Below are positions 13,864-14,937 of a stretch of 62,151 nucleotides of DNA, piece by piece (within the stretch, counting starts at the first letter, position 1; each line of letters opens with the position of its first letter). The notes under the pieces are model-generated. The model saw only the letters and a program-made list of their open reading frames with translations, had not been told where the DNA came from and made no database searches. The stretch is from Desulfuromonas sp. Its GTDB lineage: Bacteria; Desulfobacterota; Desulfuromonadia; Desulfuromonadales; Geopsychrobacteraceae. The position numbers were made by a program, and so were the translations under genes. The DNA lies in NCBI GenBank assembly GCA_002868865.1, contig PKUC01000023.1:1-62151 (forward strand), in the 5' to 3' direction.

Positions 13864-14937
13864 ATGTATATTGATAATATAAAAATAAAAAATTTTAGAA
13901 ATATAAATGAAGAAAGTGTTTTTCTAAGTTAAAACTTGAACATACTTATTGGAAAAAATGCGAATGGAAAAACAAATTTTTTAGAGTCAGTATATATTCC
14001 TTCTAATTTTAATAGTTTTAGAACAAATAAAATTGATAATTTAATTCTTAATAAAAATATAAAAACTGTAATAAATATAAATTATTTTACAAATAAAATT
14101 AATTCACAGGTACAATTTAATCTTTTTAAAAATAAAAAAGAATTTTATTTAAACAATAAAAAAATAAATTCTTACACAGACATCAATTTTTTATATAAAA
14201 CTATTTTATATAATCCAGAAGATATTTATATTATTAAAGGAAATCCTCTTTTAAGAAGAAATTTGTTAGATAAATCTATTTTTTTAATAAATAATGACTA
14301 TTTAAAAGAATATAAAATTTTTTTAAATTGTTTAAAACAAAGAAATAAATTTTTAAAATTAAATGAAAAGTATGACAATATTTGGGACGTAAACTACATA
14401 ATCTGTTCAAAGAAAATATTAGATTCGAGAATTAGTTTTTTATTAGAAATTAATACTATAATAGAAAATATTAAAAAATACTTTGGTTTTAAAGATAAGT
14501 TCATAGAATTAAAATATTTACCAATTTTAAAAAACATTGAGAATGATTTTGAAAAAAATTTTTATTTAAACAAACACAAAGATGAAAAATATAAATTTAC
14601 AACTTATGGACCACATAGAGACAATCCTTCTTTTTTTATAGATGAGAAGGATGCAGCAAGCCATTGCTCCCAAGGTCAGCAAAAATTATTAATTTTATTA
14701 TTTAAAACAGCACTTTTTCATCTTTTTAGTTCTAAAAACGAAATGAAACCTATTTTAATTTTTGATGATATAACTGGTGATTTAGATCAAAATAATAAAA
14801 ATACTTTTATAGAATATATATTAGGTAATGCTGGACAAGTTTTTATGACAAGCACTGATTATAACTTGAGAAATAATAATAATTTTTTGAATGCGAATTT
14901 TTTTGAAGTTCAAAATGGTAAATTTTTAAACCTGTGA
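13864..14937 (+). pseudogene. recF: DNA replication/repair protein RecF, interrupted by in-frame TAA at codon 23
   Basis: RecF is an SMC-like ATPase that loads RecA at gaps through RecFOR. The ATG directly after the dnaN stop begins MYIDNIKIKNFRNINEE, the normal RecF start. Codon 23 (13930-13932) is TAA, and the same frame then continues NLNILIGKNANGKTNFLES (Walker A) for 333 codons, with GPHRDNPS, the SQGQQK signature and Walker B ILIFDDI all intact. Total length would be a normal 357. Possible explanations are a recent nonsense mutation, a sequence error in a very AT-rich region, readthrough, or reinitiation at the TTG at 13936. The stop falls at a variable position and the rest shows no decay. 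The gene is the most AT-rich in the window (4 G+C in 60 at 14041-14100). Confidence 0.85.

Follow-up and report, generated by a model that had tools for sequence, protein, structure and literature searches.

The recF gene of a Desulfuromonas draft genome is interrupted by an in-frame TAA. This raises the question of whether the stop exists in the cell and abolishes RecF, arose during sequencing and assembly, or is circumvented in translation, and of how the composition of the surrounding DNA bears on it. The stretch of DNA analysed (the window, 62,151 bases) is a complete contig (C35) of a genome of 2.66 Mb in 109 contigs with a completeness rating of 100%. Its GyrB is 82-83% identical to GyrB of MAGs labelled uncultured Desulfuromonadales, Desulfuromusa and Desulfuromonas, which places the genome close to Desulfuromusa within the Desulfuromonadales.

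The origin region

The genes concerned lie on the plus strand. dnaA (11249-12580; TIGR00362, 580 bits) is intact; its ATG start is our own reading, as the mechanically derived ORF begins at TTG 11192 and the profile match starts at residue 24 of that longer ORF. dnaN (12769-13863; TIGR00663, 337 bits) is likewise intact and ends with a TAG at 13861-13863 that directly adjoins the ATG of recF, leaving a gap of 0. It is followed by recF and an intact gyrB (14945-17332), in the order dnaN-recF-gyrB, with gyrA about 2.5 kb downstream of the recF zone. The spacing between dnaN and recF is shorter in this family (0-11 bases across 21 profiled genomes) than in other genomes of the order (9-101 bases in 20 genomes). 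GC skew reverses sign at around 11 kb, putting the origin next to dnaA. An exact TTATCCACA DnaA box occurs only once between 8 and 17 kb, on the minus strand at 11230 just upstream of dnaA, along with four one-mismatch sites; the DnaA box layout at this origin may be unusual. A second dnaN-like match (192 bits, C1:913902-914984) was seen in the single-contig relative G005.

A single lesion in recF

The recF frame extends from ATG 13864 to the TGA at 14935-14937 and contains one TAA, at 13930-13932. Because the frame is identical on both sides of the TAA, the lesion is a single one of the substitution type, with no frameshift. The earlier note had described a recF with an in-frame TAA at codon 23 that is otherwise complete, and the sequence bears this out: the read-through frame scores 264 bits on TIGR00611 (curated cut-off 172), and the open frame after the stop, counted from TTG 13936 to 14937 (333 aa), still scores 245.7 bits over profile positions 23-339 of 339. 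The note's observation that this frame has stayed open despite its AT content also holds, since the local base composition gives 333 stop-free codons a probability of about 9e-17. In the region's two remaining forward frames, 357 codons include 44 and 57 stops. Owing to the TAA at codon 23, recF is not one uninterrupted frame that includes the N-terminal strands; nor does it have the multiple disabling lesions expected of a decayed pseudogene, as there is only one. A frameshift or a wrongly chosen start was ruled out by the continuity of the frame and by an equivalent N-terminal segment in 40 of 40 relatives, whose recF starts were chosen by script near the expected place. An intact second copy was ruled out as well, with a single recF match in the genome at E <= 1e-12, and no stop was found in any of the 15 other SMC_N (PF02463) match rows of the genome.

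The protein obtained by reading through the stop is a RecF by sequence and by predicted fold. Among solved RecF structures its best sequence match is 5z67 (E 1.5e-26). The model, for which 31 RecF proteins were aligned, has a mean pLDDT of 91.5 and a pTM of 0.90, and the best 11 of 862 Foldseek matches are RecF entries. Invariant over the 31 sequences are G30, N32, G35 and K36, then S269, G271 and Q272, and finally D301 and D302, which we take to be the Walker A, signature (SQGQ) and Walker B (DD) motifs, respectively. The claim that all family motifs are kept was correct for these three but too broad as a whole: at D-loop position 306, where Glu is at least 90% conserved in the 31 sequences, this RecF has Asp, and it has altered 5 of the 43 columns that are invariant in the other 20 family members.

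In the model, residues 2-11 and 14-20 form strands beta-1 and beta-2, the turn after them has the stop at residue 23, and strand beta-3 (residues 25-29) leads into Walker A. This agrees with crystallography of T. tengcongensis RecF, in whose ATPase domain beta-3/alpha-A is reported as the site of Walker A (PMC5794780). The 22-codon leader ahead of the stop (13864-13929) thus encodes both first strands, and it includes an RN motif that is present in 41 of 41 sequences.

An AT-rich trough over dnaA, dnaN and recF

The earlier note did not recognise that the AT-richness is confined to a trough within a genome of about 56% GC. It extends from about 8000 to 16000 over yidC, rnpA, dnaA, dnaN, recF and the 5' half of gyrB, with 1-kb GC values of 18-43% that reach their minimum of 0.18-0.20 over recF. 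Outside the origin, 613 overlapping 1-kb windows sampled from the genome have a median GC of 0.56 and a minimum of 0.31; another low-GC patch (0.31) lies at L179:3501-4500. At fourfold-degenerate sites recF forms the floor, with a GC of 0.08 versus 0.77 twenty kb away, followed by dnaN (0.10), dnaA (0.19), mnmE (0.41) and mnmG (0.61), while gyrA has 0.69, acnA 0.75 and pyk 0.77. In this genome, in which it was measured, the depth of the trough at these sites reaches about 70 percentage points. The composition recovers within gyrB, the quarters of which have fourfold-site GC values of 0.17, 0.31, 0.68 and 0.56 from start to end. A gradient at near-neutral sites that runs inside genes points to a local mutational or conversion bias, which is the likeliest cause of the trough. 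Recent horizontal replacement of the origin genes is not favoured, given the gradual change of composition inside gyrB and the fact that, among 20 family genomes, the same-genus genome G001 is the sole or tied best match for dnaA (72%), dnaN (64%), recF (39%), gyrB (83%) and gyrA (88%).

The trough is shared by relatives. The GC of recF is at most 0.27 in 17 of the 21 family genomes with a full-length recF, the exceptions being G001 (0.34), G034 (0.45), G105 (0.48) and G002 (0.50). The 17 include G005, whose genome is a single contig of 4,241,730 bases, so that the trough is more than a draft artefact. Both genes were found in 40 of 41 genomes (G003 had no gyrA; the 20 from outside the family were chosen by us), and in all of these recF falls short of gyrA in third-position GC, by between 0.07 and 0.50, with the present genome at the extreme. 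A mild dip therefore appears general across the order and a deep one commonest in this family. Of 80 named GyrB loci, 71 were profiled by comparing the GC of the 3 kb after gyrB with that of the 2.5 kb before it; among those outside the Desulfuromonadales, where gene order differs, GC drops between the two by no more than 0.14. The literature listings and abstract openings searched contained no description of such a trough, which is no proof of its absence from the literature.

Possible consequences of the trough

A composition of this kind exposes a gene to nonsense mutation. Of the modelled substitutions, 9.6% create a stop in this recF compared with 1.2-4.3% in recF genes with a third-position GC above 0.5, although the model is crude in that its target-base frequencies are the gene's own third-position composition. 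The hazard is shared by 16 other recF genes of similar or lower third-position GC, none of which has a stop.

The origin zone also seems to be lost in assembly because of the trough. In 44 family genomes dnaA was found in 28, dnaN in 25, recF in 30 and gyrA in 42, in searches that used differing E-value limits; relative to gyrA, the shortfall has a Fisher P of 0.0004 for dnaA, 0.00003 for dnaN and 0.002 for recF. Some of the genomes that lack a dnaA match (16 of 44) or a dnaN match (19 of 44) are rated 96-100% complete, and G011, G012, G015, G019 and G027 have neither. As dnaA is normally essential, its absence most likely reflects assembly gaps. Given the AT trough and the assembly drop-outs, either event, a genuine nonsense mutation or an error in the consensus, is likelier here than elsewhere.

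These observations can be joined in a model that we put forward tentatively, with confidence somewhat below even. A local mutation or conversion process at the origin would produce an order-wide, graded AT trough at neutral sites, centred on dnaA, dnaN and recF, drive the genes on its floor, recF first, towards nonsense mutation, and hide the origin from many assemblies; the stop in recF would be one casualty. As a finding the stop is ordinary, and by itself it is a small annotation matter that calls for marking recF as interrupted. The trough is the better lead. A steep neutral-site gradient at the origin, with dips in many relatives, would let origin-linked mutation bias be studied as a natural experiment. 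The finding is a warning, too: dnaA, dnaN and recF can appear to be missing from family genomes rated 96-100% complete, because completeness scores overlook a lost origin.

recF in relatives and the age of the lesion

An internal stop in recF occurs in this genome alone among the 105 of 136 genomes of the order in which recF was matched at E 1e-12 or lower; in a class-wide search, 229 of 277 genomes had a match. The survey rows of the order contained no stop in dnaN, dnaA, gyrA or recR, and one each in recF (this genome) and recO. The latter, a lone in-frame TAA in a draft relative (G018:C219:88-801), indicates that isolated stops do turn up in drafts of this kind. In the family, all 24 genomes with a dnaN above the cut-off, the present one included, have recF, complete or partial. 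This retention argues that recF is under selection and that null alleles should be rare, which counts against a null recF in the present organism.

If constraint was lost, the loss appears to be recent. As many as 134 of the 333 post-stop codons are one step from a stop, and in a simple model a second stop would be expected at 95% beyond about 0.03 neutral substitutions per site, which sets an upper bound on the divergence since constraint was lost. With neither a second stop nor a frameshift in the frame, a recent mutation fits best; elsewhere in the frame there are few signs of decay. On a species tree fixed for 24 genomes (G003 and G035 left out for missing genes, five outgroups chosen by us), this genome has the longest RecF tip (1.64) and the fifth and third longest tips for DnaN and DnaA. 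The ratio of RecF to DnaN tip length, 3.04, ranks fourth and lies inside the range of 0.33-5.2, so that no clear additional relaxation on recF is apparent. The 5 of 43 altered RecF columns are the most in the family (next is G002 with 4 of 42), and together with the longest tip they could be a mild hint of longer relaxation; in DnaN, too, 8 of 109 invariant columns are broken in this genome, which is a long branch for DnaN and DnaA as well. The only other same-genus genome compared shares 72% DNA identity over 171 bases.

Explanations of the stop

The earlier note had offered four options: a very recent mutation, readthrough, restart at the TTG and a base-calling error. Recent mutation gives the best fit, and readthrough and restart found poor support. 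In the reading that we prefer, at only just less than even confidence, recF has suffered a single recent nonsense substitution at codon 23 and its product is null. Translation would begin at the ATG adjoining the dnaN stop and terminate after 22 codons. Normal RecF would not be produced, and the loading of RecA at gaps would then depend on RecO and RecR without RecF; recO and recR have no stops in this genome. The extreme local AT pressure may have raised the odds of such a change. Strains of E. coli with recF deleted exist (PMC6451095), while a recF null of Thermus thermophilus was reported as unobtainable, the authors being undecided on essentiality (PMC11143384).

The TAA may instead have entered as a base-calling or assembly error in the consensus of a poorly covered AT-rich zone, with recF intact in the organism; this is a serious possibility, if on balance a doubtful one. 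It would accord with the loss of the origin zone from family assemblies, with the retention of recF by relatives and with the comparable TAA in recO of G018. Moreover, nine of the 30 family genomes with recF have only fragments of it, and in six of these nine a piece starts no more than 94 bases from the first base of its contig. A literature search on coverage returned nothing. The type of lesion argues against an error, as it is an in-frame substitution and homopolymer-type indels are the commoner sequencing error. The contig, furthermore, crosses the trough unbroken, and three further genes within it, dnaA, dnaN and yidC, are intact. No mid-gene stop was recognised by eye in 277 ORF segments of the genome, a scan that covered 314 kb of the 2.66 Mb outside the trough and weighs little; on visual inspection, junctions in it that might have been broken genes looked like ordinary ends of genes, the pair at 55002 being HtpX and RsmB.

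The two ways of making RecF in spite of a real stop are possible but unlikely to yield normal RecF. The absence of a clear ribosome-binding site ahead of the ATG and the abutting dnaN stop suggest that translation of recF is likely coupled to dnaN. Ribosomes that reinitiate after one stop could conceivably do so again at TTG 13936, three bases past the TAA, where the downstream frame is open and scores above the RecF cut-off. Such a product, 24 residues short, would begin at residue 25 and lack strands beta-1 and beta-2, which in the model lie beside the Walker A strand, as well as the conserved RN motif. The N-terminal segment lies within the frame in all 40 relatives, and the purine-rich stretch closest to the TTG is about 19 bases upstream, not at the usual spacing of a ribosome-binding site; we consider restart improbable. 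Readthrough of the TAA at useful efficiency, by recoding, would explain the open frame after the stop and is less probable still. No stop-reading tRNA was found among the 38 typed of 39 tRNA matches in the draft genome, a set that is incomplete, as shown by the lack of tRNA-Ile; the untyped match (C15, 29.3 bits) was not recognised by ARAGORN. TAA also terminates the nearby dnaA, and none of the 40 aligned relatives has a stop in that column.

Comparison with known systems

Single-lesion pseudogenes are a general class in bacteria (a related review is PMC11078800). The present recF resembles them in that a gene conserved in other respects has a single disabling change. Unlike them, recF without a second lesion is indistinguishable from an error or a polymorphism. 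With known RecF proteins (TIGR00611; PDB 5z67/5z68/5z69, 2o5v, 8a93) it shares full-length sequence and fold, the nucleotide-binding motifs and the dnaN-recF-gyrB order; it differs from them in the stop at codon 23, the strong AT bias and the replacement of the D-loop Glu by Asp. The DNA-unwinding element of oriC is short. The trough, unlike such an element, spans about 8 kb, crosses coding sequence and is visible at fourfold-degenerate sites, while occupying a place on the chromosome equivalent to that of the AT-rich unwinding elements of oriC (reviews: PMC4285127, PMC5835720).
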